A stretch of DNA of 64,000 nucleotides from Kosakonia quasisacchari (GTDB lineage Bacteria; Pseudomonadota; Gammaproteobacteria; Enterobacterales; Enterobacteriaceae). Below the pieces are notes generated by a model that had not been told where the DNA came from, made no database searches, and saw only the letters and a program-made list of their open reading frames with translations. The stretch spans positions 186,001-250,000 of the forward strand of contig NZ_SJOP01000002.1 of the NCBI RefSeq assembly GCF_004331415.1, given 5' to 3'. How positions within the stretch are numbered: the stretch's first letter is position 1; each line of letters opens with the position of its first letter. Shown here piece by piece: positions 44,879 to 59,621 of this stretch. The position numbers were made by a program, and so were the translations under genes.

Positions 44879-45388
44879 ATGCCGCACAGTCTCAACCGCC
44901 AGCAGGCCCCCAAAGGTCTGAATGCGAAAAACTGGCTCGCCGAAGCGCCGCTGCGCATGCCGATGAATAACCTTGATCCCGATGTTGCCGGAAACCCGAA
45001 CGCGCTGGTGTATGGCGGAATTATTGGGCGCGACCATCTTGATTCTGGCTCGCTGGCAAGCCCGAACCATGAAACCGAAGCGATGCGCTACGGTACTGAC
45101 GCTATATCTGGCTGGTCACTGCTAAATGCCGTAAGCGGCGCGACCTGGGTCTCGGCGCACCACGGCGGTGGCGTGGGGATGGGCTTTTCCCAGTATGCGA
45201 GCATGGTGATTGACTGTGATGGCAGCGATGAAGCGGCGGCGCGCATTGCGCGCGCGCTGCATAACGATCCGGCAACCGGCGTGCTGCGTCATGCTGTCGC
45301 CGGGTATGAGATTGCGATTGAGTGCGCCGCAGAGCAGGGACTCAATCTTCCTATGGTTGCTGCAACGCAGGGGCAGGGCAAAGCATGA
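44879..45388 (+). pseudogene. hutU: Urocanase gene with large internal in-frame deletion
   Basis: The 169-codon frame joins the first ~50 residues of urocanase ([21 protein letters not shown], ending LVYGG) directly to the C-terminal ~120 ([21 protein letters not shown] to LNLPM). Compared with the intact 558-residue HutU in this window, about 380 residues are missing, including the NAD-binding core. The frame survives and its TGA overlaps the hutH start (ATGA), so it may still couple translation to hutH. GGAGAG precedes the ATG. Confidence 0.9.
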
Positions 45389-46911
45389 AAAATTTCACCC
45401 TTATTCCGGGCCAACTCACCCTCGCGCAGCTGCGCGAAATCTACAGCCAGCCTCTTCATCTTTCACTGGATGATGGCGCGTTTGCGGCTATTAATGAGAG
45501 CGTTGCCTGCGTCAACACGATTATGGCGGAAGGCCGCACCGCCTATGGCATCAACACGGGCTTCGGTTTGCTGGCACAAACGCGTATCGCGACGGAAGAT
45601 CTGGAGAATTTGCAACGCTCGCTGGTGCTGTCTCACGCCGCAGGTGTTGGCGAACCGCTGGATGACGCGCTGGTTCGCTTAATTATGGTACTCAAGATCA
45701 ACAGCCTGGCGCGCGGTTTTTCCGGCATTCGCTTACAGGTGATCCAGATGCTGGTGGCAATGGTCAACGCGGGGGTTTATCCGTGGATCCCGGCGAAAGG
45801 TTCGGTAGGCGCTTCGGGTGATCTGGCGCCCTTGGCGCATATGTCACTGACGCTGCTGGGCGAAGGGAAAGCGCGCTGGCAGGGCGAATGGTTACCGGCG
45901 AGTGAAGCGCTGAGAAACGCGGGCCTTGAGCCGATTACGCTGGCGGCGAAAGAGGGGCTGGCGCTGCTGAACGGCACGCAAACGTCGACCGCGTTTGCTT
46001 TGCGTGGCCTTTTTGAAGCCGAAGATCTGTTCGCATCCGCTGTGGTTTGCGGTGCGCTAACCACTGAAGCGGCACTCGGTTCGCGTCGTCCCTTCGATGC
46101 ACGTATTCATGATGTCCGCGGTCAGCGCGGGCAGATGGACGCAGCAGCGTTATATCGCCATGTGTTAACCGATGACAGCGCAATCTCTCAGTCTCACCAC
46201 AACTGCAATAAAGTGCAGGATCCTTACTCCCTGCGCTGCCAGCCGCAGGTGATGGGCGCATGCCTGACGCAGCTGCGTTTTGCTGCAGAAGTGCTGTTAA
46301 CCGAAGCGAATGCGGTTTCCGATAATCCGCTGGTTTTTGCCGCCGAAAATGAAGTGATCTCCGGGGGGAATTTCCACGCAGAGCCAGTGGCGATGGCGGC
46401 AGACAACATTGCACTGGCGATTGCGGAAATAGGTTCGCTTGCGGAGCGCCGCATTGCCCTGCTGATGGACAGCCATATGTCGCAACTGCCGCCGTTCCTC
46501 GTGAAAAACGGCGGTGTCAATTCCGGCTTTATGATTGCCCAGGTCACCGCAGCGGCGTTGGCGAGCGAAAACAAAGCGTTATCGCATCCGCACAGCGTGG
46601 ACAGTTTGCCTACCTCGGCAAACCAGGAAGATCACGTCTCGATGGCCCCGGCTGCCGGGCGTCGTCTGTGGGAAATGGCGGCGAACACGCGTGGCATCAT
46701 TGCCGTTGAATGGCTGGCCGCCTGTCAGGGGCTGGATATGCGCGAAGGTTTAACCAGTAGCCCGCTACTGGAACAGGCACGCCATCTGCTGCGCGAGCAG
46801 GTTACGCATTATGAGAAAGACCGTTATTTCGCCCCGGATATTGAACGTGCGATTGCGCTGCTGGAGGCGCGTCATTTGACGACATTGCTGCCGGGAATAG
46901 TGTCTTGCTGA
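45385..46911 (+). CDS. hutH: Histidine ammonia-lyase
   Basis: A 508-residue MIO-dependent lyase that converts histidine to urocanate and ammonia. The cofactor triad Ala143-Ser144-Gly145 lies in [15 protein letters not shown]. The catalytic residues known from Pseudomonas putida HutH are all present: Tyr54, His84, Asn196, Tyr281, Arg284, Phe330 and Glu415 (QEDHVSM). The ATG at 45385 overlaps the decayed hutU stop. It is the only canonical histidase in the window and stands convergent to hutG, apart from the hutUIG operon, so it probably feeds that operon from a separate promoter. Confidence 0.95.
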
Positions 46912-47293: not shown

Positions 47294-48094
47294 TTAACGG
47301 GGCAGTTGTCGCTTACTCCAGTTGAGCGCGGTATTGATCAGTGTATTCAGTAGCTGGCGGAAATCTTTACTCTTCTCTTCGGAGAAAGCAAAACTCGTTT
47401 CATCCATGTAGCAGCATTGCGCCACTTCCAGTTGTATCGCATGGATGTTCTGTTGCGGTGCGCCGTAATGGCGGGTGATATATCCGCCTTTGAAGCGGCC
47501 GTTGAGCACTTTCGTGTAGTGCGGAAATGCCTCGCAGCAGTCCAGCAATGCGGCGCTGAGTCCTGGCGCACAGCTTGCGCCATCGGCAGTGCCGAAGTTC
47601 AAATCCGGGAGTTTGCCGTCAAACAAACGCGGAACCACCGATTTGATGGAGTGCGCATCCCACAGTAGCGCGTAGCCGAAAGTGTCGCGCAACCGCGCCA
47701 GTTCCTGCGCCAGTGCCTGGTGATAAGGCTGCCATACATTATGCAAAATAGCGTTTTTCGTGGCGTCATCCGGCGCTTTGCCCGCTTCGAACAGCGGTTC
47801 GCCGTCAAAAAATGTGTCCGGAAACAGGCCGGTGGTCGCCGTGCTGTATAACGGTTTGTCATCTGCCGGGCGGTTTAAATCCACCACATAGCGGGAATAA
47901 TTAGCGCTCAGCACGCTGGCGCCAAGCTCGCGAATCGGCTGATACAGCAGCGGAATATGCCAGTCCGTGTCCTCCAGTCGCAGCGCCCGTGTGGTGAGGC
48001 TGCTGGCTATTTCCGGTGTAAGCTGCGTACCGGGATGGGGCATGCTGACCAGTAGCGGTAGCCGGCCCTGATGTAATTCGAATCCGTTAGTCAT
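47294..48094 (-). CDS. hutG: N-formylglutamate deformylase
   Basis: A 266-residue enzyme of the N-formylglutamate amidohydrolase family that splits N-formylglutamate into glutamate and formate, the last step of the five-step histidine pathway. Visible features: [12 protein letters not shown] at the N-terminus, [30 protein letters not shown], and [16 protein letters not shown] with probable zinc ligands. This is not the formiminoglutamase type found in Klebsiella hutG. It overlaps hutI by 8 bases. Confidence 0.92.
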
Positions 48095-49295
48095 GCCAAA
48101 CTTCCTCCCCCTGATAAATCACCTGTTTTGACAGTGTTCCTCCCAGCCAGTAGCTGAGTTCTGCCGGATGCGCCACATCCCACGCGACAAAGCTGGCCTC
48201 TTTACCCGCCTGTAGCGTACCGCAGCGTTCGCTGATACCTAATGCGCGGGCGGCATGACAGGTCACTCCCGCCAGCGCTTCTTCAGGCGTCAGACGGAAC
48301 AACGTGCAGGCCATATTCATCATCAGGCGCAGAGATAATACGGGCGAGGTACCGGGGTTCAGATCGCTGGAAATGGCCATCGGCACCTGGTGCTGACGCA
48401 GCAGCGCCACCGGTGGCTGCTGGCTCTCGCGTAAAAAGTAAAAAGCGCCCGGCAGCAGCACGGCCGTGGTGCCGTGCTGCGCCATCAGCACGATATCTTC
48501 TTCACACAAATACTCGAGATGATCGGCGGAAAGCGCATTGTAGCGGGCGGCCAGCCCTGCGCCGTGCAGCAGAGATAGCTGTTCGGCATGCAGTTTTACC
48601 GGTAAGCCAAGCTGCTGCGCTTTGTGAAAAACCCGCTCCACTTGCTGCGGCGAAAAGGCCAGATGTTCACAAAAAGCATCGACTGCATCGACCAGTCCTT
48701 GTGCGTGCCAGGCGGGCAGCCAGTGCTGGCAAATCTCGTCGATGTAGTCGTCAGCGCGCCCCTGATACTCGCCTGGCAAAGCATGCGCTGCGAGACAGGT
48801 ACTGAAGATAGTGAGCGGCATTTCTGCGCCAAGCGCGCGAATCACCTGCAACATTTTGCTTTCATCAGCAAAGCTGAGGCCGTAACCGGATTTGATCTCA
48901 AGCGCTGTAACGCCGTCTTTGCGCAGCGCGTCAATGCGCTTGCGGGCGCTTTCCAGCAGTTGTTGCTGGCTGGCCTTGCGGGTGGCATTGACGGTACTGA
49001 TAATGCCGCCGCCTGCTGCGGCGATTTCCGCGTAGCTCGCGCCGTTGAGTCGCATCTCAAACTCCTGACTGCGATCGCCGCCAAACACGCTATGGCTATG
49101 GCAATCGATCAACCCTGGCGTAACCAGCCGTCCCTGCAAATCCACTTCACGATCGACTACATTGTCCGGCTGCGTTCCCTCTTCGCCCAACCATGAAATC
49201 TGCGGCCCGTCGGTGATCAGTGCGCCGCGAGGGATCAGGTTGTATTTGCCCGCTTCCATCGTGGCAATCTGGCAGTGACGCCATAAAATGCGCAT
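48087..49295 (-). CDS. hutI: Imidazolonepropionase
   Basis: A 402-residue amidohydrolase-superfamily enzyme that opens 4-imidazolone-5-propionate to formiminoglutamate. Metal-binding HSH in [40 protein letters not shown] and [11 protein letters not shown] mark the active site. I start at ATG 49295 (MRILWRH) after GGGAGAA; the longer frame is not family-like. It lies 49 bases after hutU. Confidence 0.94.
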
Positions 49296-49344
49296 CCGCG
49301 TTCTCCCGTCATGGTTCGGCGCGGCCATCACCGCGCCGCCGGTT

Positions 49345-51021
49345 TTACTTTGAAATCATCGGCAAGTTAAGGCCGTGCTCTTTGGCACAGGCGACAGCTG
49401 AATCATAGCCTGCATCGGCATGGCGCATCACGCCCGTCGCCGGATCGTTATGCAGTACACGGGCAATACGTTCTGCCGCTTCATCCGTACCATCGCAGAC
49501 GATAACCATCCCTGAATGCTGTGAGAAGCCCATGCCGACGCCGCCACCGTGGTGCAGGGAAACCCAGGTTGCGCCGCTGGCGGTATTAAGCAACGCATTG
49601 AGCAAAGGCCAGTCGGAAACGGCATCGGATCCATCTTTCATCGCTTCGGTTTCGCGGTTCGGGCTGGCAACGGAGCCGGAGTCCAGGTGATCGCGGCCAA
49701 TGACAATCGGTGCGGAGACTTCGCCGCTACGCACCATTTCGTTAAACGCCAGCCCCAGGCGAGCGCGCTGCCCCAGACCAACCCAGCAAATACGCGCAGG
49801 TAAGCCCTGGAAACTGATGCGCTCTTTCGCCATATCCAGCCAGCGGTGCAGATGCGCATCATCCGCGATCAGCTCTTTTACCTTTTCATCGGTGCGATAG
49901 ATATCCTCTGGATCGCCGGAGAGCGCGGCCCAGCGGAATGGCCCGATACCGCGGCAGAAGAGCGGGCGAATATAGGCGGGCACAAAACCCGGAAAATCGA
50001 AGGCGTTGCTGACGCCCATCTCTTTCGCCATCTGGCGAATGTTGTTGCCGTAATCGAAGGTCGGAATGCCCTGCTGCTGGAAGGCGAGCATCGCTTTAAC
50101 GTGCTCCGCCATTGAGGCTTTCGCCGCCTGACTCACTACTGCGGGTTCACTCTTCGCGCGTTCGCGATAGTCTTCCCACTGCCAGCCAATCGGCAGATAG
50201 CCATTCAGCGGATCGTGGGCGCTGGTCTGATCGGTCACGATATCCGGACGCACACCACGTTTAACCAGTTCCGGTAAGACTTCTGCCGCATTGCCGTGCA
50301 GCGCAACAGAGATGGCTTTGCCTTCGCGGGTGTAGCGTTCGATACGCGCCAGCGCATCGTCCAGATCCGTTGCCTGCTCATCCACATACCCGGTACGCAG
50401 GCGGAAATCAATACGAGATTGCTGACACTCAATGTTCAGCGAGCAGGCGCCCGCCAGCGTGGCGGCCAGCGGCTGCGCGCCGCCCATGCCGCCCAGACCA
50501 GCGGTCAGTACCCAGCGGCCAACCAGCGAACCGTCATAGTGCTGGCGGCCCGCTTCGACGAAGGTTTCATATGTACCCTGAACGATCCCCTGGCTGCCGA
50601 TATAGATCCAGGAGCCTGCAGTCATCTGGCCGTACATCGCCAGCCCTTTGGCGTCCAGCTCGTTGAAGTGCTCCCAGTTGGCCCAGTGGGGAACCAGGTT
50701 GGAGTTAGCGATCAGTACGCGTGGTGCATTGCTGTGGGTTTTAAACACGCCGACCGGCTTGCCGGACTGCACCAGCAGCGTTTCGTCATCATTAAGCTCC
50801 TTCAGCGCTTCAACCATTTTGTCAAAGCACTCCCAGTTACGTGCAGCCCGTCCAATCCCACCGTAAACCACCAGCTCTTTCGGGTTTTCCGCGACTTCGG
50901 GATCAAGATTATTCATCAGCATGCGCAGCGGCGCTTCGGTCAGCCAGCTTTTCGCATTCAATGTTGTGCCGCGCGGCGCTCTGATCTCAACATCACGATA
51001 ACGGGATAATTCACTACTCAT
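49345..51021 (-). CDS. hutU: Urocanate hydratase
   Basis: A 558-residue NAD+-dependent urocanase converting urocanate to imidazolonepropionate, full length. Segments seen: [39 protein letters not shown], the dinucleotide loop [31 protein letters not shown] with the conserved active-site Cys, and [21 protein letters not shown]. First gene of hutU-hutI-hutG. A HutC-type operator sits about 70 bases upstream. Confidence 0.96.
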
Positions 51022-51088: not shown

Positions 51089-51102
51089 CTTGTATATACA
51101 TG
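51089..51102. promoter_or_regulatory. HutC operator upstream of hutU
   Basis: CTTGTATATACATG, 13 of 14 positions of the HutC consensus CTTGTATATACAAG, 68 bases before the hutU start. Confidence 0.8.
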
Positions 51103-51424: not shown

Positions 51425-51438
51425 GTTGTACATACAAG
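51425..51438. promoter_or_regulatory. HutC operator upstream of the importer-lyase operon
   Basis: GTTGTACATACAAG agrees with the HutC motif at 12 of 14 positions, 68 bases before the ATPase start. It indicates that the importer operon is induced with the hut genes. Confidence 0.72.
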
Positions 51439-51505
51439 GATATACATAAAGTATTTTGCATTGCTGTCACAAAGGGGCGGCAAATGATGACCATAAGGCG
51501 TAACG

Positions 51506-52603
51506 ATGATTACTTTCAACAATGTGACCAAGCATTACCACGACGGTACCGTCGTGGTCGATGGCCTGAGCCTTGTCGCGCCAGGAGGCAAAATTACTGT
51601 GCTGGTGGGGCCGTCAGGTTGCGGAAAAACGACCTCATTACGCATGATCAACCGGCTGGTGGAACCCTCTTCCGGTACGATTTTGCTCAATGGCGAATCC
51701 ACCGCGCAGATGGATGTCGTACAGCTGCGTCGCCGTATTGGTTACGTGATCCAGAATGCCGGGTTGTTCCCGCATAAAACCATCATCGATAACATTGCCA
51801 CTACCGCCATCCTTAATGGCGCGGCGAAAAGCAAAGCCAGGGTCAGAGCGGCGGAATTACTGGAAGTGGTTGGTCTGGCACCGCAACTGGCAAAACGCTA
51901 CCCGTGGCAGCTCTCCGGCGGACAACAGCAGCGCGTCGGCGTGGCGCGTGCGCTGGCTGCCGACCCGGAATTTATGCTGATGGACGAACCCTTCAGCGCC
52001 GTTGATCCCGTTGTGCGTGAACAGTTGCAGGAAGAGTTTCTGCGCATTCAGAAAGAGGTCAGCAAGACCATCATTATGGTCACGCACGATATTGATGAAG
52101 CGATGAAACTTGGTGATTGTGTTGCGGTGCTGAAACCTGGCGGTAAGCTGGCGCAACTGGCGACGCCGGGCGAATTACTGAATGCGCCACAGAGCGAATT
52201 CGTTGCCGATTTCATTGGCCGCGACCGCGGTTATCGCAAACTCAGTTTCCATACCTCCGCGCCGCTGACGGCATTGCAGGCGGAACCGGCTATCGAAATA
52301 GGCGCGACACTTGCGCAGGCACGAAATATCAGCGCACAACGTTGGCTGCTGGTGACGCAACAGGGCAAAGCTTGCGGCTGGTTTGACACGCATCAGCAGG
52401 TAACGGTGATAGCGCCGGAAAACGTGAACCTCGGCGCGACGTTTTCTCCACAGGGCGGCACGCTGCGTCAGTTGCTGGATTCGGCACTCAGTTCTCCCTG
52501 TCACCGCGCCGTGGTGGTGGATGAACAACTTGTCCCGCAGGGATCGCTGGCGCTGGAAAATGTACTGGATGCCTGCAAATCGCTAACGCAGGAGGCGCTA
52601 TGA
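51506..52603 (+). CDS. Betaine-type ABC importer ATPase (OpuCA/OsmV-like)
   Basis: A 365-residue ATPase of the osmoprotectant (quaternary amine) importer family. Walker A GPSGCGKTTS at 36-45, Q loop VIQNAGLFPHKT, signature LSGGQQQRVGVARAL, Walker B LMDEPF and switch HDIDEAMKLGD are intact. A C-terminal ~120 residues look like a degenerate CBS pair (RWLLVTQQGKACGWFD; HRAVVVDEQLVPQGSLALENV), as in OpuCA. It overlaps the first permease gene by ATGA. The hut setting and HutC site suggest the substrate is a histidine derivative, not a stress osmolyte. Confidence 0.88.
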   Translation: MITFNNVTKHYHDGTVVVDGLSLVAPGGKITVLVGPSGCGKTTSLRMINRLVEPSSGTILLNGESTAQMDVVQLRRRIGYVIQNAGLFPHKTIIDNIATTAILNGAAKSKARVRAAELLEVVGLAPQLAKRYPWQLSGGQQQRVGVARALAADPEFMLMDEPFSAVDPVVREQLQEEFLRIQKEVSKTIIMVTHDIDEAMKLGDCVAVLKPGGKLAQLATPGELLNAPQSEFVADFIGRDRGYRKLSFHTSAPLTALQAEPAIEIGATLAQARNISAQRWLLVTQQGKACGWFDTHQQVTVIAPENVNLGATFSPQGGTLRQLLDSALSSPCHRAVVVDEQLVPQGSLALENVLDACKSLTQEAL

Positions 52604-53244
52604 GAGTTGACTGGCTGTGGGGGCAAAGCGACAGGATCCTCAGCCTGCTGCTCTGGCACTGCTATTTGTCGATTACGCCGATCCTGATCGGCCTGCTGTT
52701 GGCAATCCCGGTTGGCTGGGCAGTGAACAACCTGCCGAAAGTGAAAGGTATCATCCTGAACCTGTTCGGCTTGCTGTACACCATTCCTTCGCTGGCGCTG
52801 TTCGTACTGTTGCCACCGCTGCTGAATACGCAAATTCTCGACCCGATCAACGTGGTCGTGGCGCTGACCATTTACAGCTTTGCGCTGCTGGTAAGAACCG
52901 TGTGCGACGGGCTGGATTCCGTTGCCGAAGATACCCGCCAGTCTGCTTTCGCGTTGGGGTACAAACCGCTTCAGCAATTTTTGCAGATCGACCTGCCGCT
53001 CGCTGTGCCGGTGATTGGTTCCGGGCTGCGCGTGGCCGTGGTTTCTAATGTCAGCATTGTGTCGGTTGCCGCGCTGATTGGCGCGCCGCAGCTAGGTTCG
53101 CTGTTTACCCAGGGGTTTCAGCTTCAATTCCTTACCCCGATTATCGCCGGGATTGTGCTGTGCATTGCGCTGGCCTTCATTCTGGATTGCCTGGTGGTGA
53201 CCATTACCCGTTCTTTAAGTCGCTGGCAACCGCAAAGGGGATAA
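52600..53244 (+). CDS. ABC importer permease, OpuCB-like
   Basis: A 214-residue inner-membrane permease with about six helices. The conserved BPD permease loop reads DGLDSVAEDTRQSAFALGYKPLQQFLQIDLPLAVPVIGSGLR (EAA motif), with YTIPSLALFVLLPPLL upstream, both typical of betaine/choline permeases. It is translationally coupled to the ATPase and followed by a second permease, giving a heterodimeric channel. Confidence 0.88.
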   Translation: MRVDWLWGQSDRILSLLLWHCYLSITPILIGLLLAIPVGWAVNNLPKVKGIILNLFGLLYTIPSLALFVLLPPLLNTQILDPINVVVALTIYSFALLVRTVCDGLDSVAEDTRQSAFALGYKPLQQFLQIDLPLAVPVIGSGLRVAVVSNVSIVSVAALIGAPQLGSLFTQGFQLQFLTPIIAGIVLCIALAFILDCLVVTITRSLSRWQPQRG

Positions 53245-53247
53245 TTG

Positions 53248-53928
53248 ATGAGTGAATGGTTTTTCGATCTCAGCCACTGGTACGGCGATGACGGCATTGT
53301 GCCGTTGCTGTTGCAGCATATCGGTTACAGCGCGGTGGCGCTGGCGATTGCCGTCGCCATTGCTTTTCCGGTCGGCTGCTACACCGGTCATACCGGGAAA
53401 GGGGAGGCGCTGCTGATTGGTACCACCAACGCCCTGCGTTCGTTGCCCTCTTTTGGTCTAATTATTTTGCTGGTGATCCTGCTGGCGGGCTATTTTGAAT
53501 CGGATCTGGCCTTTGTTTTGCCCTGCATCATCGTGCTGGTGGTACTGGCGCTGCCGCCCGTGGCGCTGGGCGTACATGCGGGTATCCGTTCTGTCGATCC
53601 CAGCGTGCATGACGCGGCAAAAGGGATTGGTCTAACGCCGCTTCAGGTGCTGTTGCAGGTCGAACTGCCCTGTGCCATGCCGCTGATCCTCTCCGGGATC
53701 CGCAGTGCCGCACTGCAAATTGTCTCTACTGCGACCATCGCGGCATATGTTTCACTCGGCGGCCTGGGGCGATTGATTATCGACGGGCGTGCCGCCAACG
53801 ACTTTGCGCAGATGACCGCCGGGGCCATCCTCGTCGCGCTGCTGGCATTGATCATTGATCTCTTTTTTTCGCTTTCAGGGAAAGTCGTGGTTTCACCGGG
53901 CATCACCCGGAAAACCAAAAACCAGTGA
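53248..53928 (+). CDS. ABC importer permease, OpuCD-like
   Basis: A 226-residue second permease. The EAA loop is SVDPSVHDAAKGIGLTPLQVLLQVELPCAMPLILSGIR, and LRSLPSFGLIILLVILLAGYF marks the preceding helices. I start at ATG 53248, 7 bases after AAAGGGG; a TTG just before it is unlikely. It lies four bases from the first permease and 33 from the binding-protein gene. Confidence 0.88.
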   Translation: MSEWFFDLSHWYGDDGIVPLLLQHIGYSAVALAIAVAIAFPVGCYTGHTGKGEALLIGTTNALRSLPSFGLIILLVILLAGYFESDLAFVLPCIIVLVVLALPPVALGVHAGIRSVDPSVHDAAKGIGLTPLQVLLQVELPCAMPLILSGIRSAALQIVSTATIAAYVSLGGLGRLIIDGRAANDFAQMTAGAILVALLALIIDLFFSLSGKVVVSPGITRKTKNQ

Positions 53929-53961
53929 TGTTGAGTCCTTTAATTACAGAAGGTTAATAAG

Positions 53962-54843
53962 ATGATTAAGAAACGCTATTTACCGTTGTTCAGTGCCGCG
54001 CTGCTGTCTGTCGCTTCTTCTGTCTGGGCTGCGGATGCCGGGCAGAAAGTGATTATTGGTTCGGCGGATTTTCCGGAAAACCAGTTGCTGGCGACCATTT
54101 ACGCCGGGGCGCTGGAAGCGCAAAACATCCCGGTCGAGAAAAAACTCAACATTGGTAGCCGTGAAGTCTATATCCCGGCTCTGCTGGACGGTTCAATCAC
54201 CGTGATCCCCGAATACAGCGGCGCGCTGCTGAGCTATCTGGATGCGAAAAACGAAGCACACAGCTCGGAAGATGTGGCGAAAGCGCTGGCCGCTAAGCTG
54301 CCGGAAAAAGTGAAAATGCTGAACACGTCCACGGCGCAGAACAGCGATGTGCTGGCAGTAACGAAGAAAACCGCCGACAAATACAAACTGAAAACCATCG
54401 ACGACCTGAAGCCTGTCGCTGGGCAGTTAGTGCTTGGCGGCCCGGCGGAGTGGAAAACCCGTCATGAAGGCGTTCCCGGCCTGCGTGAAGTTTACGGCCT
54501 GGATTTCAAAACCTTCAAAGTGCTGGATGTCGCTGGTCCGCTGACGCTGACAGCGCTGAAAAATAACCAGATTCAGGTGGCTGACCTGTACTCTACTACG
54601 CCGGAAATCAAAAAAGATCACCTGGTTGCGCTGGAGGATCCGAAACACCTGTTTGCCGCGCAGAACATTGTGCCAATTGTCGCCACCAGCACGCTGAACC
54701 CGACCATTGAAAGCACGCTGAACAAAATCTCCGCGCAGCTCACCACCGAAGATCTGATCGCCATGAACGAACAGCTTGCTGAGTTCGCCAGTATTGATGA
54801 TGTGGCGCACCAGTGGCTGGTTAAACACCAACTGAGCAAGTAA
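53962..54843 (+). CDS. ABC importer substrate-binding protein (OpuAC/OsmF-like)
   Basis: A 293-residue periplasmic protein with a signal peptide (LPLFSAALLSVASSVWA) and the glycine-betaine-binding fold: VIIGSADFPENQLLATIYAGALEAQ, LLDGSITVIPEYSGALLSYL, VLGGPAEWKTRHEGVPGL, VADLYSTTPEIKKDHLVALEDP. This YehZ/OsmF/OpuCC family binds trimethylammonium compounds and includes ergothioneine receptors such as EgtU. No lipobox is seen, so it is free in the periplasm. The lyase gene follows after 14 bases. Confidence 0.87.
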   Translation: MIKKRYLPLFSAALLSVASSVWAADAGQKVIIGSADFPENQLLATIYAGALEAQNIPVEKKLNIGSREVYIPALLDGSITVIPEYSGALLSYLDAKNEAHSSEDVAKALAAKLPEKVKMLNTSTAQNSDVLAVTKKTADKYKLKTIDDLKPVAGQLVLGGPAEWKTRHEGVPGLREVYGLDFKTFKVLDVAGPLTLTALKNNQIQVADLYSTTPEIKKDHLVALEDPKHLFAAQNIVPIVATSTLNPTIESTLNKISAQLTTEDLIAMNEQLAEFASIDDVAHQWLVKHQLSK

Positions 54844-54857
54844 GGAACGGCTGCGAG

Positions 54858-56417
54858 ATGACGACAACAATCCGTTCTTCCATGCCGCATGTGGATGCGG
54901 TCACCTTAGGCACGGATGCCACGACCATTGATGAGCTGGTGCGCATTGCCGATGGCGCACCGGTTGTTCTGGCTGACGAAGCGCTGGCGCAAATGGATAA
55001 GGTCAGCGGGTACATTCGCAAGGCGATTGCTGACGGGAAGGTGATTTATGGCCTGACGACCGGCGTGGGAGACCTGGTAACCGAGCGTCTCTCTGCGGAT
55101 CAAATTGCCAGCGTGCAGCTCAATATGCTGCGCAGTCACGCCTGCGGGATGGGACCGGATCTGTCGGTGCGGGAAGTGCGGTCGATGATGGCGGTGATGC
55201 TGAAATCGCTGTTGCAGGGCTACAGCGGTGTCAGCTCTGAACTGGTGCAGCGTATGTGCCTGATGCTGAACCGGCAGGTGACGCCGTGGTCGCCTGCCAG
55301 TGGTTCCGTGGGGTATCTGATTGCTACCGCGCATATCGGCTTATCGGTGTTTGGCGAAGGGCAGTGCTGGTATCAGGGCGAGTTGTTGCCCTCCGCCGAG
55401 GCGCTGGCGAAAGCGGGCATTGCGCCGCGCATTCCCGGCCCGCGCGAAGGGCACGCGCTGATCAGCGGCACGTATGAAATTACCGCACTGGCCTGTCTGG
55501 CAGTGCGGGATTTCGAGCAGTTGCTGCCAGTCGCGGATATGGCTGGTGGTATGTGTCTCGAAGCGCTGAAAGGCAACACTCGCGGCTACGATGCGCGTCT
55601 GCACGCCCTGCGTCCGCATGACGGGCAACAAGAAACGGCGCAGATTTTGCGCCGCTTACTGCACGGCAGCGAAATCCTTCAGCGTTACCGCGACCACCGG
55701 GTGCAGGATGCACTCAGCTTGCGTTGCATCCCGCAAATCCATGGTGCGGTGCGCGATCAACTGGCGCATTGCCGTCATATCGTCACCACCGAACTCAATT
55801 CGGTAACCGACAACCCGGTGTTTTTAATTGAAGACGATGCGCTGGTGATTTTGCCTGGCGGTAACGGTCACGGTGCGCCGCTGGCGCTGGCACTCGATGC
55901 GCTGGCGGTGGCTATTGCGCAACTGAGCACGGCGTCGCAAGCGCGTTCTGACCGTATCACTAATGTGCATCTCAGCGGCTTACCGGCGTTTCTGGTCGGC
56001 ACAAGCGGAGCCAATTCCGGGATGATGATCCCACCCTATGTCGCCGCCGCGCTGGCCGGTGATAATCGCAGCCTGGCGGCACCCGCCAGCGTACATACGG
56101 TTTCCACCTGTGCCGGGCAGGAAGACCATATCAGCATGGGCGTCTCTTCGGCGCGAAAAGCGATGCAGGCGGTGGCAAACGCAGTGGATATCGTGGCTAT
56201 TGAGCTGCTGTGCGCTTGTCAGGCGATTGAATTTCACCGCCCGCTGCGCGCCTCGGTGGGAACGGAACTGACGCTGTCGCAGGTGCGCCGGCAAGTCGCG
56301 TTTCGTGAAACCGATACGCCGCTGTACACGGATATGCATGCCGTCCGGGATCTGATTGCTGATGGCGAACTGAGCCGCCAGCTTGCTTTACTGATTAAGA
56401 AGGGGGCTGATGAGTGA
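54858..56417 (+). CDS. Aromatic-amino-acid-lyase homologue without the canonical MIO site; candidate histidine-betaine lyase
   Basis: A 519-residue member of the histidine/phenylalanine ammonia-lyase superfamily. Relative to the true HutH in this window it keeps Tyr64 (VIYGLTTGVG), His94, Arg289 and Glu422 (QEDHISM). It lacks the normal cofactor loop: HutH has [14 protein letters not shown], this protein has PASGSVGYLIATAH (146-159), three residues shorter. HutH Asn196, Tyr281 and Phe330 correspond to Ser203, Leu286 and Gly337. It is therefore unlikely to be a histidase. It lies in one operon with a betaine-type importer. Ergothionases are MIO-free relatives that release trimethylamine from ergothioneine; a similar reaction on hercynine or ergothioneine is my inference. 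Similar paralogues (PA5093) occur in Pseudomonas hut loci. Confidence 0.85.
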   Translation: MTTTIRSSMPHVDAVTLGTDATTIDELVRIADGAPVVLADEALAQMDKVSGYIRKAIADGKVIYGLTTGVGDLVTERLSADQIASVQLNMLRSHACGMGPDLSVREVRSMMAVMLKSLLQGYSGVSSELVQRMCLMLNRQVTPWSPASGSVGYLIATAHIGLSVFGEGQCWYQGELLPSAEALAKAGIAPRIPGPREGHALISGTYEITALACLAVRDFEQLLPVADMAGGMCLEALKGNTRGYDARLHALRPHDGQQETAQILRRLLHGSEILQRYRDHRVQDALSLRCIPQIHGAVRDQLAHCRHIVTTELNSVTDNPVFLIEDDALVILPGGNGHGAPLALALDALAVAIAQLSTASQARSDRITNVHLSGLPAFLVGTSGANSGMMIPPYVAAALAGDNRSLAAPASVHTVSTCAGQEDHISMGVSSARKAMQAVANAVDIVAIELLCACQAIEFHRPLRASVGTELTLSQVRRQVAFRETDTPLYTDMHAVRDLIADGELSRQLALLIKKGADE

Positions 56418-56834
56418 AGCCATTAAGCTGCTCAATGGCAAATGGGGACTTGATCTGTCGCGCATGTTGGCTGGCCCGTGGTGCGCCTCGCTATTACCTG
56501 GCGCACGCAGCGACTGTTGCATGCTCCAGGGAGATCACTGGCGATGCTGCGTTGCGCCAGACGTATTAATGACGAAGAGGCACGCCAGTCGGGGCTGATT
56601 AGCCTGTTGTTTCAGTTTGATGGACGAGCAGGCGCAGGCGCTAAGCTGAGCGTGAGTCATCACCAAAGCCGCGCCGCTGGCGGCCGTAATGATCAAAAAA
56701 CGGTGCAGACCCGCGACGAAATGCCGCTACGTACGGGAGTTGTTTATGAGTGGGGGCTCTCGGCGCTGATTGCCAACCGTGAAGATCGCGCCGCCGGGCG
56801 GGCGGCGTTTCAGAAGGTCGACGCTGCAGTTTAG
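56410..56834 (+). pseudogene. Decayed fragments: CaiB/BaiF CoA-transferase start and a possible enoyl-CoA hydratase end
   Basis: The frame opening at 56410, overlapping the lyase stop, reads KWGLDLSRMLAGPWCASLL. This is the N-terminal signature of family III (CaiB/BaiF) CoA-transferases, but homology ends after ~30 residues. In another frame, INDEEARQSGLIS and EWGLSALIANREDRAAGRAAFQK resemble internal and C-terminal pieces of enoyl-CoA hydratases. The two seem fused by deletion. They hint that CoA-linked catabolic genes once followed the lyase; the second identification is tentative. Confidence 0.5.
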
Positions 56835-57385
56835 CGGGATGTCAGCGTCACGCAGGCGAAAAGCGTGTCGCCGCCTGCGTTGACGGTAACCGTCGCCGGG
56901 TTCTCGATCAGCAGGCTGTCGTAATGTTGCAGAGCATGGCGTTCCCCTTCGACGGTGACATCAAGAAGATTTCCGGCATTGAACAGCAGCATTGTTCCCT
57001 GTGGATGTTGCCATGTGCCAGCGCGCAGCCAGCGCACCGTTGCCTGGGTGGTTTCGCGGCGGTAAATCACGTTGAAATCGAGTAACGGCGCGCCGACGAC
57101 CTCGCAGAACACCTCGCTATCGCCGTTAAAATCCGTTGCCTGAAACGGTGGAATTAACGCGCTGCGCTGGTTATCAACCGTCAGAAACATGCCTTAGCCT
57201 TCCAGCACACTGATGTTTCGCAGATAACCGGAGAAACGGGAGAACGCCCCGTCTTCGCGGATCGTCGCAACCGATATGCGCCAGTCATACTGTTCGCTGG
57301 CGGGAAAACGGCATACTTCTCGGGTGACACCCTGGCCATTTTTCCAGCGCATCTCAGCGTAGCCGCTATAAGGCAGCAGCCTCAT
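56831..57385 (-). pseudogene. hutD: hutD interrupted by one in-frame TAA
   Basis: From ATG 57385 the frame encodes the start of HutD (MRLLPYSGYAEMRWKNGQGVT; RISVATIREDGAFSRFSGYLRNISVLEG), then TAA at 57196-57194. The same frame goes on with GMFLTVDNQRSALIPPF to a stop at 56831, giving about 184 codons in all, the usual HutD length. HutD is a cupin-like protein of unclear role in hut regulation (a proposed governor in Pseudomonas fluorescens). A restart at MFLTVD is possible but no ribosome site is seen. It overlaps hutC by 4 bases. Confidence 0.85.
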
Positions 57386-58143
57386 TTGCGCATGCTTCCT
57401 TCCAGACGGTAGCGAGAACCCGGATACACCAGGCGCACGCTGGTGACGATTTTCTTGTCCTGACGACCGGTCCAGGTGCGGCGGTTCACTTGCAGGCAGG
57501 GGGTTTGCTCATCTATTTCCAGGTGAACGCACTCGCTGCGGGGCACGTTCACGGCTTCGATAATGTGCTCGCCCTCGACAATCGGTGCGATGGAAGAGAG
57601 ATAGGCATTCGGGGTGATACGGGTGAAATCCTGTTGCAAATAGTCCGGCACAATCAGCGAATTTACCAGCCTGTCTTCCAGCATCACCGGAACGCCGTTT
57701 TCATAATGGCAAATCAGCGAATGAAACAGGCGGCTGCCTTTCGGCAGATTAAAAGACAGCGCTTGCTGCGCATCTGCATGCAGTTGGGTCAGCTCCAGCA
57801 CTCTGGCGTGATGGCGATGGCCGCGGCTGGCAATCTCATCGGCAATGTTGTTGATTTCCAGCAATGCCGACTGCCCGCGTACTTCGGCGACAAAGGTGCC
57901 AACGCCCTGCATACGCACCAGCAGCCCTTCGGCGGTCAGTTCACGCAGTGCGCGGTTAATGGTCATCCGACTGTAGCCAAACTGGCTGACCAGCTCGCTT
58001 TCGGACGGTACGCGGTAGTTCACCGGCCAGGCGCCGCTGTGGATATTGGTTTTGATCATGCTCTTCACCCTTTCATAGAAAGGGGCGGGCTGATCGAGAC
58101 GCGTCTCGCCTGCGGCTGCTTTAAAAATATCGCTTTGCTCCAT
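57382..58143 (-). CDS. hutC: HutC, GntR-family repressor of hut genes
   Basis: A 253-residue repressor. The GntR winged HTH (about 30-95) shows WPVNYRVPSESELVSQFGYSRMTINRALRELTAEGLLVRMQGVGTFVA. The UTRA ligand domain (about 110-245) ends LQVNRRTWTGRQDKKIVTSVRLVYPGSRYRLEG. HutC is released from DNA by urocanate. Several matching operators lie before hutU, the importer operon and hutF, so it likely coordinates all of them. It is divergent from hutF. Confidence 0.94.
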   Translation of the reverse strand: MEQSDIFKAAAGETRLDQPAPFYERVKSMIKTNIHSGAWPVNYRVPSESELVSQFGYSRMTINRALRELTAEGLLVRMQGVGTFVAEVRGQSALLEINNIADEIASRGHRHHARVLELTQLHADAQQALSFNLPKGSRLFHSLICHYENGVPVMLEDRLVNSLIVPDYLQQDFTRITPNAYLSSIAPIVEGEHIIEAVNVPRSECVHLEIDEQTPCLQVNRRTWTGRQDKKIVTSVRLVYPGSRYRLEGSMRK

Positions 58144-58226: not shown

Positions 58227-58253
58227 AAATGACGGCAGGCGGTGAGGGGATAT

Positions 58254-59621
58254 ATGACGGTATATTTCGCGGCAAAAGCATTGTTGCCGCAGGGCTGGGC
58301 GGAGAATGTCCGCATTACGGTTTCCTCACAGGGCATCATCACCGCGCTCGAAAGCGGTAGCCCGCCAGACGACACAACGATTCGCCTGGAAGGTTTCCTG
58401 GTGCCGGGCATGCCAAACCTGCATTCGCACGCTTTTCAGCGCGCAATGGCCGGGCTGACCGAAGTGGTGGGCGATCCGGCTGACAGCTTCTGGACATGGC
58501 GCGATTTGATGTATCGGATGGTGGACAAAATCACCCCCGAACAGCTGGAAATCATTGCCAGCTATCTGTATATCGAAATGCTGAAGGCCGGTTATACCTC
58601 GGTTGCCGAATTTCACTATTTGCACCACGATCGTGGCGGGAAACCTTACGCGCAGCCAGCCGAGCTGGCGTTGCGTATTGCACAGGCGGCGAAAACGGCA
58701 GGCATTGGCCTGACATTGCTGCCGGTGCTTTACAGTTTCTCCGGTTTTGGCGGGCAGCCAGCGACCGCCGGGCAGAGCCGCTTTATTCACGATACGGAAA
58801 GCTATCTGGCGCTGCATGAATCGTTGACGTCGCAGCTTGCTGCTGAGCCGATGCAGCGTACCGGGTTGTGCTTTCACTCGCTACGAGCCGTTACGCCGGA
58901 ACAAATGCAGAGCGTGTTTGAGGCCAGCCCGCAACCGCAGCCGGTGCATATTCATATTGCCGAGCAGCAAAAAGAGGTTGATGACTGCGTGGCCTGGTCT
59001 GGATTGCGTCCAGTGGAGTGGCTTTATCAGCATATACCGGTAGATGAACAGTGGTGCCTGATCCATGCCACGCATCTTACGCCGCAGGAAACCCAGCAGA
59101 TTGCCGCTTCCGGTGCCGTGGCGGGCCTGTGCCTGACCACCGAGGCCAATCTTGGCGATGGTATTTTTCCGGGGCCGGACTATCTTGCGCAGCAGGGGCG
59201 CTGGGGGATTGGCTCTGACAGCCATATCAGCGTCAGCGTCAGCGAGGATTTGCGCTGGTTTGAGTACGGGCAACGGTTAAACAAACGGCGGCGCAACTTA
59301 CTGTATTTGCCGGATGAACCTTATATCGGCAATGTGCTGTATCAGGGGGCATTGCAGGGCGGGCGCCGTGCGCTGGGGCAGGCTATTGGTCAACTGGCGG
59401 TAGGCGATCGCGCGGATATGCTGTTGCTCGACAGCCGCGATCCCTTCCTTGCTGCCGCAGGCGATCGTGAACGTCTGAATCGCTGGATTTTCGCCTGTTC
59501 GACGAACCCGATAAAAAGGGTGATGACGGGAGGACGCTGGGTGATTGAAGAGGGGCGTCACGCGCAGGAAGAGCAGGTGACCTCCGCGTTTATTAAGGTC
59601 ATGCAGCAACTGATGGCGTAA
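58254..59621 (+). CDS. hutF: Formimidoylglutamate deiminase
   Basis: A 455-residue amidohydrolase that turns formiminoglutamate into N-formylglutamate and ammonia, the fourth step of the five-step pathway. Metal ligands are in GMPNLHSHAFQRAMAG, FHYLHHD, VHIHIAEQQKEVDDC, IHATHL and GIGSDSHISVS. ATG 58254 follows GAGGGGA. With HutG of the deformylase type, this shows a Pseudomonas-style route instead of the four-step route of Klebsiella and Salmonella. Confidence 0.95.
   Translation: MTVYFAAKALLPQGWAENVRITVSSQGIITALESGSPPDDTTIRLEGFLVPGMPNLHSHAFQRAMAGLTEVVGDPADSFWTWRDLMYRMVDKITPEQLEIIASYLYIEMLKAGYTSVAEFHYLHHDRGGKPYAQPAELALRIAQAAKTAGIGLTLLPVLYSFSGFGGQPATAGQSRFIHDTESYLALHESLTSQLAAEPMQRTGLCFHSLRAVTPEQMQSVFEASPQPQPVHIHIAEQQKEVDDCVAWSGLRPVEWLYQHIPVDEQWCLIHATHLTPQETQQIAASGAVAGLCLTTEANLGDGIFPGPDYLAQQGRWGIGSDSHISVSVSEDLRWFEYGQRLNKRRRNLLYLPDEPYIGNVLYQGALQGGRRALGQAIGQLAVGDRADMLLLDSRDPFLAAAGDRERLNRWIFACSTNPIKRVMTGGRWVIEEGRHAQEEQVTSAFIKVMQQLMA

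Follow-up and report, generated by a model that had tools for sequence, protein, structure and literature searches.

An OpuC-type importer and a MIO-less HutH-family lyase in a hut cluster of Kosakonia quasisacchari: a candidate entry to the histidine pathway

Histidine ammonia-lyase (HutH; TIGR01225, PF00221) carries an Ala-Ser-Gly triad at its methylidene-imidazolone (MIO) cofactor site. Ammonia is a poor leaving group without MIO, and the cofactor is held to be essential for its expulsion. The ergothionase of Treponema denticola (TdErg, PDB 6s7j) is a MIO-free relative of HutH, and the Pseudomonas hutH1/HutXWV module associates a MIO-less lyase with a dedicated importer inside a hut cluster. 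On the transport side, the binding protein EgtUC encloses trimethylammonium between F293, Y341, Y419 and Y443, above N339, whereas K242, T296 and R379 bind the carboxylate (PMC9732360). Finally, urocanate dissociates the HutC repressor from the hut operators in Pseudomonas putida, as stated in PMC12772324.

The DNA analysed here is a stretch of 64,000 nucleotides of Kosakonia quasisacchari (contig NZ_SJOP01000002.1, positions 186,001 to 250,000; hereafter the window), belonging to an enterobacterial genome of 5.15 Mb. Inside its hut cluster, an OpuC-type ATP-binding cassette (ABC) importer is followed by a HutH-like lyase without MIO, and a conserved HutC-type operator precedes both; this observation of the original prediction is confirmed. 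In the reading that we favor, with a probability of roughly 0.45, the operon would permit the uptake of a histidine substituted at its alpha-nitrogen (Nα), its MIO-free elimination to urocanate, and the disposal of the latter by the Hut enzymes or by a coenzyme A (CoA) route. The proposed mechanism can be summarized as follows. The operon would be repressed by the urocanate-responsive HutC, urocanate being the inducer that lifts the repressor. The importer would bring in a polar histidine derivative with a substituted alpha-nitrogen, which the lyase would remove by beta-elimination, thereby releasing urocanate. HutU, HutI, HutF and HutG would carry urocanate to glutamate in the window genome; where the operon is longer, its CoA-transferase, enoyl-CoA hydratase and 3-hydroxyacyl-CoA dehydrogenase would constitute a second disposal route for the acrylate. 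Within a hut cluster these CoA genes would be superfluous, and in the window they are deleted. A substituted nitrogen is expected because ammonia leaves poorly without MIO; judging from the binding pocket, the leaving amine may be a less substituted or a carboxyalkyl amine.

The lyase and its predicted control

As originally claimed, the importer genes and the lyase form a single operon, with overlaps or short gaps between the open reading frames (ORFs). The following features were delineated:

51426-51437, no strand: HutC-type operator TTGTACATACAA, 68 bases upstream of the ATPase gene
51506-52603, + strand: ABC ATPase (OpuCA/ProV-like); ORF; TIGR01186 at 1.8e-86, under the cut-off of that model
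52600-53244, + strand: ABC permease 1; ORF and family search; 4-base overlap with the ATPase gene
53245-53928, + strand: ABC permease 2; ORF and family search
53962-54843, + strand: binding protein of OpuC/AfProX/EgtUC fold; PF04069; 33-base gap after permease 2
54858-56417, + strand: MIO-less HutH-family lyase (clade E); PF00221, motif and tree; 14-base gap after the binding protein

The lyase is a member of PF00221 (545 bits) and, in agreement with the original prediction, a HutH relative deprived of the normal active site: its MIO site reads GSVGY---LIATAH, with three residues gone, whereas the window's own HutH, to which it is 35% identical, keeps Ala-Ser-Gly. The MIO-less motif is common to every clade-E copy read. 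The scores fall below the NCBIfam HutH cut-offs (518 against 524 and 505.5 against 539.15), but the fold family, most substrate-side residues, the hut setting and HutC control are shared with HutH. Upon alignment, the equivalents of HutH Tyr53, His83, Gln277, Arg283 and Glu414 are retained; Asn195 is replaced by Ser/Gly, Tyr280 by Leu and Phe329 by Gly. We take these positions to have the roles usually ascribed to them in HutH. Two Tyr residues of the lyase that HutH lacks, Tyr153 and Tyr394, correspond in the alignment to HutH position 142, part of the MIO triad, and position 386. A predicted model of the lyase was set aside, its local confidence (pLDDT) being under 50 at residues 66-75, 147-151, 241-293 and 369-422, around the active site. 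The ratio of nonsynonymous to synonymous substitution rates lies at 0.04-0.20 in the six pairs, out of seven, that yielded a value, which argues that the lyase is kept by selection and rules out a decaying pseudogene.

A quick phylogenetic tree of 57 rows was computed without bootstrap, branch support being given by the approximate likelihood ratio test SH-aLRT. Clade E comprises 14 rows (support 99). Six ergothionase-type rows on long branches, T. denticola 6s7j included, are found on one side of a branch of support 99 that leaves clade E on the other; a further branch (support 90) sets the two groups together apart from the remaining rows. The placement among ergothionases suggested as a check in the original prediction thus gave a negative answer: the tree indicates that the lyase is a deep clade of its own outside the TdErg clade, and membership is ruled out by this separation together with the residue comparison. 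Both enzymes are MIO-free relatives of HutH, and both display Ser at Asn195 and Leu at Tyr280; however, they are only 27% identical, the ergothionase lost MIO by a different change (SSIGEGDI), and the Lys that TdErg shares at HutH position 386 with the ergothionase-type lyase of locus L127 is Tyr in the window lyase. The same three-residue loss at the MIO site is found in type P (Pseudomonas hutH1-like, 41% identical to the window lyase) and type S (Salinicoccus, Priestia) proteins. The approximately unbiased test did not reject a single GYL clade of clade E, type P and type S (p-AU 0.465), and it yielded p-AU 0.433 for all the MIO-less rows together.

In the window, two operator sites are found at one mismatch or less, where chance alone would give 1.05; the site by itself therefore proves little. 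It is nevertheless exact in 20 of the 21 enterobacterial copies (window included), at about 55-129 bases upstream of the ATPase gene, and has one mismatch in the remaining one (L048); a chance match is therefore ruled out. The operator was not found in any of the five Sodalis and rhizobial copies tested. Since a HutC repressor gene scoring over its cut-off accompanies this conserved predicted operator, both the site and the HutC control announced in the original prediction hold, the binding itself being predicted from sequence.

HutH-less genomes, the product and the CoA genes

Several observations bear on the product. A whole-genome search returned the lyase as the only PF00221 protein in 3 of the 20 lyase-bearing genomes, namely Pectobacterium betavasculorum, Rosenbergiella epipactidis and Tatumella morbirosei, with GSVGYLIATAH read in each lyase; these genomes are mostly drafts, and a missed hutH is possible in each. 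The hutU, hutI, hutF, hutG, hutC and hutD genes that lie beside these lyases are free of stops, and each genome contains one HutU. One stop is present in the L049 permease. No MIO-type HutH was observed within any of 23 scanned loci (Acidisoma, two plasmids and 20 loci of enterobacterial genomes); the window differs from them in having an ordinary hutH nearby. Acidisoma encodes two HutU proteins, one beside a MIO-type HutH and the other beside the clade-E lyase. For these reasons urocanate, feeding the Hut enzymes, is probably the product, in line with the original proposal that it enters HutU, HutI, HutF and HutG, and the lyase seems to stand in for HutH in some bacteria. The thio-urocanate option of that proposal is disfavored, the lyase falling outside the ergothionase clade and having HutU and HutI genes as neighbors; thiourocanate is broken down by another route than HutU/HutI.

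The replacement of HutH in three genomes would also suit a MIO-independent histidase supplied with plain histidine by the importer, as would the polar, acidic pocket described below, fit for a free alpha-ammonium group. We consider this very unlikely in view of the role of MIO in ammonia expulsion. A MIO-type HutH is moreover retained in the other 17 of the 20 genomes. According to published work, hutH1 of Pseudomonas fluorescens SBW25 is dispensable for growth on histidine (PMC8871633) and the single deletion of hutH impairs this growth in Pseudomonas aeruginosa (PMC12772324); the extra HutH-like genes of both organisms were assigned to type P by inference from gene order. The frequent presence of HutH also weighs against the favored elimination of an Nα-substituted histidine, as do seven further family-sample genomes (three of them apparent duplicates by their coordinates) which, like the window, possess both the lyase and a MIO-type HutH. 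HutU, for its part, can also act on imported urocanate.

The hut genes of the window are arranged as follows:

44879-45388: remnant of a second hutU directly before hutH, about residues 59-439 gone
45388-46911, + strand: ordinary HutH with Ala-Ser-Gly intact, adjoining this remnant
47294-48094, - strand: HutG, N-formylglutamate deformylase (NCBIfam)
48087-49331, - strand: HutI, imidazolonepropionase (NCBIfam)
49345-51021, - strand: HutU, urocanase, assigned from its similarity to the HutU proteins of relatives and annotated records
51090-51101, no strand: second, imperfect operator TTGTATATACAT, upstream of hutU, one mismatch
56418-56492, + strand: scar, first part of a CaiB/BaiF CoA-transferase gene (LSRMLAGPWCASLL in frame), aligning to Kosakonia sacchari L033 up to 11635
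56503-56813, + strand: scar, 3' remnant of an enoyl-CoA hydratase gene, 103 hydratase residues matching from 56505
56831-57385, - strand: hutD, broken by an in-frame stop; intact copies in relatives
57382-58143, - strand: HutC repressor, TIGR02018 at 297.8 bits against a cut-off of 220
58242-59621, + strand: HutF, formimidoylglutamate deiminase (NCBIfam)

K. sacchari is the closest named relative found (lyase 96% identical), in a search that may omit the organism's own or very near records. At the corresponding place its locus L033 contains neither hutH nor the hutU remnant, and a topoisomerase-like gene adjoins hutG.

In 10 of 21 loci (L033, L035-L039, L041, L046, L048 and L050), three further genes come after that of the lyase; they encode a family III CoA-transferase, a 3-hydroxyacyl-CoA dehydrogenase and an enoyl-CoA hydratase, families that were read in L035 and L050. 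None of the three is present in nine loci, and L051 is broken. In Acidisoma (L052) the dehydrogenase and the hydratase follow the lyase, the CoA-transferase being on the other strand. K. sacchari carries the hut and CoA routes side by side. The window copy is a truncated version of this long form, which could not be recognized in the original prediction: positions 56503-57500 align to L033 14068-15083 and the segment 11636-14067 is missing, a 2.4-kb deletion that joins the start of the CoA-transferase gene to the end of the hydratase gene. A similar CoA-transferase remnant suspected by eye after the lyase of Pectobacterium L042 was not borne out by DNA comparison. Long forms without hut neighbors occur in Rahnella, Serratia, Rouxiella (L046), Sodalis praecaptivus, Rhizobium (two), Agrobacterium and Neorhizobium; these eight loci and the short-form L047 make up nine stand-alone loci. 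When the window, plasmid and rhizobial copies are counted and the broken L051 and Acidisoma L052 excluded, 11 of the 12 short forms and 7 of the 15 long forms lie inside hut clusters (Fisher p 0.019, kinship uncorrected).

Such operons could alternatively point to another acrylate than urocanate, derived from a different ring amino acid and having its side chain shortened by the CoA enzymes, the hut setting being secondary. The rhizobial, Sodalis, Rahnella, Serratia and Rouxiella L046 operons, which carry the CoA genes apart from hut, speak for this. So does Rhizobium ruizarguesonis (L202:3356-14039), where a FadX-like CoA-transferase, a short-chain dehydrogenase/reductase (SDR) and a MaoC protein (by record annotation) accompany HutC, an ergothionase-type lyase and a cage-bearing binding protein; by analogy, this looks like the same pathway logic achieved with other CoA enzymes. 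We nonetheless judge the alternative quite unlikely, because the HutH-type imidazole-side residues are retained, the HutH-less genomes display intact hut genes and no CoA genes, and a HutC-family gene adjoins six of the nine stand-alone operons. The genes scored all exceed the HutC equivalog cut-off of 220, with 246 and 233 (L181), 251 (L182), 248 (L183), 293 (L046) and 286 (L050).

A number of these observations must nevertheless be held against the favored route to urocanate. CoA genes are odd if urocanate is the product where HutU exists, as in L046, L047, L048, L050 and K. sacchari; the first four, all stand-alone enterobacterial loci, have one HutU each elsewhere in the genome. At least in rhizobia, the CoA genes could point to an acrylate other than urocanate. 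HutU was found in only one of four plasmid records searched (Neorhizobium), the search covering the plasmid records and leaving host chromosomes outside. No HutC-family gene was found near three of the nine stand-alone loci (L047, L048 and Sodalis L180) nor in Acidisoma, although L047 and L048 retain the operator.

The binding protein and the nature of the substrate

EgtUC is the best PDB sequence match of the binding protein (8.5e-29). The predicted model (mean pLDDT 75.5) resembles AfProX (Z 28.9), EgtUC (27.8) and OpuBC (27.7), which suggests that the fold of the EgtU/OpuC importers is shared, at Z 27-28; the aromatic cage of this quaternary-amine binder group (cluster F-III) is not. At the EgtUC cage positions the window protein displays Y85, D129, Y210 and Q234 over N127, and at the carboxylate positions A35, A88 and R167, the equivalents of K242 and T296 both being Ala. 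Three of the four cage aromatics are gone in all 27 relatives checked: D129 is found in 22 of 22, Q234 in 21 of 22 (the exception, L051, is a broken copy) and Tyr at 210 in none of the 22, and four rhizobial proteins and that of Sodalis display the same loss. The cage is fully retained in a homologue beside an ergothionase-type lyase. Because the aromatics are lost and Asp and Gln stand in their place, the pocket that normally holds the N(CH3)3 group appears to be polar and acidic in this protein group. The importer proposed for trimethylammonium compounds in the original prediction is consequently of the announced OpuC/EgtU-type fold but has a broken cage; this cage is dismantled in 27 relatives and in part in the window protein, which makes a betaine ligand doubtful. 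Two points temper this conclusion: two of the four cage aromatics (Y85 and Y210) are still present in the window protein, and the binding-site positions were assigned from a sequence alignment, as the model is ligand-free and of low confidence at residues 207-213.

Ergothioneine as the substrate, with thiourocanate as the product, was among the candidates of the original prediction. In its favor are the match to EgtUC and the retained equivalents of E375 and R379. However, the EgtU cage and the EgtU-specific K242, I243, G244 and T275 are not retained (G244, F293 and K242, used as test residues, correspond to F37, Y85 and A35), E375 and R379 equivalents are also retained in homologues paired with flavin monooxygenases, and the lyase, located outside the ergothionase clade, has Tyr instead of the Lys common to TdErg and L127. 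Ergothioneine is thus an unlikely ligand, and this pathway as a whole appears extremely improbable.

Hercynine (N-alpha-trimethylhistidine), from which the lyase would expel trimethylamine to form urocanate, deserves more attention. The HutH-less genomes and the Acidisoma HutU pairing fit it as well as they fit a non-quaternary substrate; MIO-free trimethylamine elimination is known from ergothionase, as described in PMC13405746; GYL-type relatives are paired with HutXWV or BCCT transporters; and Tyr153 and Tyr394 occupy HutH positions 142 and 386. The binding protein argues against it, with Asp and Gln for cage aromatics, three of four lost in the 27 relatives and two of four in the window protein, and with two of three carboxylate ligands (K242 and T296) turned into Ala. 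The match to EgtU is in itself no argument for hercynine, since EgtUC binds it about 10,000-fold more weakly than ergothioneine, according to PMC9732360. Hercynine is therefore retained as a candidate, although an unlikely one. We lean, by a weaker inference, toward a substrate that is not a trimethylammonium betaine; the Nα-substituent of the histidine would be quaternary or, more likely, not.

Broken-cage homologues also stand beside NtaA/DmoA-type flavin monooxygenases in Agrobacterium tumefaciens CG920 and Klebsiella SB612; such pairs were recorded at L200:6469-11182 and L201:8923-11289. In Rhizobium jaguaris (L203:525-9843), a divergent MIO-less PF00221 lyase (23% identity) accompanies a broken-cage importer and amidohydrolase, M20-family and UbiD genes. 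The binding proteins of CG920 and R. jaguaris have Phe at position 210. A profile search for the binding protein in the order of a type-P genome of the same phylum (G757) found none in 17 genomes, which shows little.

Importers were surveyed at each locus over 7 kb on either side of its top-scoring lyase; HutX, BCCT carriers, polar-amino-acid binding proteins and OpuC-type binding proteins, with or without a cage, were all counted. Such importers were found at 27 of 28 clade-E loci (the exception being Acidisoma), 10 of 11 type-P loci, one of two type-S loci, the odd locus L133 and two of three loci of the ergothionase group, and near none of 20 MIO-type HutH controls. The controls, taken from the samples of the order and the class, are non-random and comprise no HutH gene that is clustered with a MIO-less lyase, the window's own being such a case. 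In several type-P loci the best-scoring lyase is the neighboring HutH or, in L127, which carries both lyase types and is counted under type P, the ergothionase-type gene. The type-P module resembles the window operon in associating a MIO-less GYL lyase with a dedicated importer in a hut cluster, but its importer is ProX/ProV-type with Trp retained, or a BCCT or polar-amino-acid system in other genera. HutXWV lies directly beside the type-P lyase in L128, L129, L130 and L134, and BCCT or polar-amino-acid importers are found in L091-L093 and L127. The Pseudomonas HutX, with Trp residues aligning to those of 7yle, and the BCCT carriers of other genera favor quaternary substrates for the wider GYL group, contrary to the substrate class preferred here.

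Other arrangements were encountered in this survey. The segment L127:104-6744 contains an ergothionase-type lyase (best PDB match 6s7j, 1.4e-78), a full-cage OpuC importer and an ornithine-cyclodeaminase-family gene, and adjoins a hut cluster that also holds the type-P lyase and a BCCT carrier. PA5093 is labelled hutG in PMC12772324. At the Pseudomonas-like locus L129:9242-10774 the type-P lyase is located between hutI and HutXWV. If L129 matches PAO1, the hutG label presumably fits this gene order poorly. In Salinicoccus (L053:8364-11518) a type-S lyase directly follows a BCCT transporter whose TM8 Trp box is unlike that of BetP. L133:9169-13000 encodes an intermediate-looking MIO-less lyase with GSVGYLGPEGHLAL at the MIO site and the Asn195, Tyr280 and Phe329 equivalents retained, beside a polar-amino-acid ABC importer.

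Distribution and significance

The clade-E lyase is present in 8 of 246 genomes of the family, that of the window included. Among 72,556 plasmid records, 314 match the lyase at E <=1e-80, of which 178 at 60-80% identity; Klebsiella accounts for 192 of the 314 (any identity), and two of the matching plasmid loci were read with annotation. A near-identity search found the lyase in 2 of 5,426 Escherichia coli genomes, both times on plasmids. No clade-E lyase besides that of the window was detected in the order (197 genomes), class (369) and phylum (398) samples, where the next matches reach less than half of its own bits and none of those read belongs to clade E. None of the titles and abstract openings listed by searches of the open PMC library describes this operon.

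With respect to the original interpretation as a whole, HutC control, the loss of MIO and a product feeding the Hut enzymes are upheld, the betaine importer and ergothioneine are not, and hercynine retains some probability. The most specific proposal, rather unlikely in its entirety, would be a distinct class of cofactor-free C-N lyases that convert a non-quaternary Nα-substituted histidine to urocanate, are served by a re-tooled OpuC importer, possess in the full operon a urocanoyl-CoA alternative to urocanase, are spread among enterobacteria and rhizobial plasmids, and can replace HutH. If the favored reading is true, the operon would represent a new HutH-free entry to the histidine pathway, its lyase a further MIO-free group beside ergothionase, and its importer a family whose betaine annotation is doubtful. 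Since the lyase is common on plasmids, the nutrient may be relevant to plant and animal settings. The apparent role of the lyase in place of HutH in some bacteria makes the substrate worth finding, and the three HutH-less genomes make this question directly testable.

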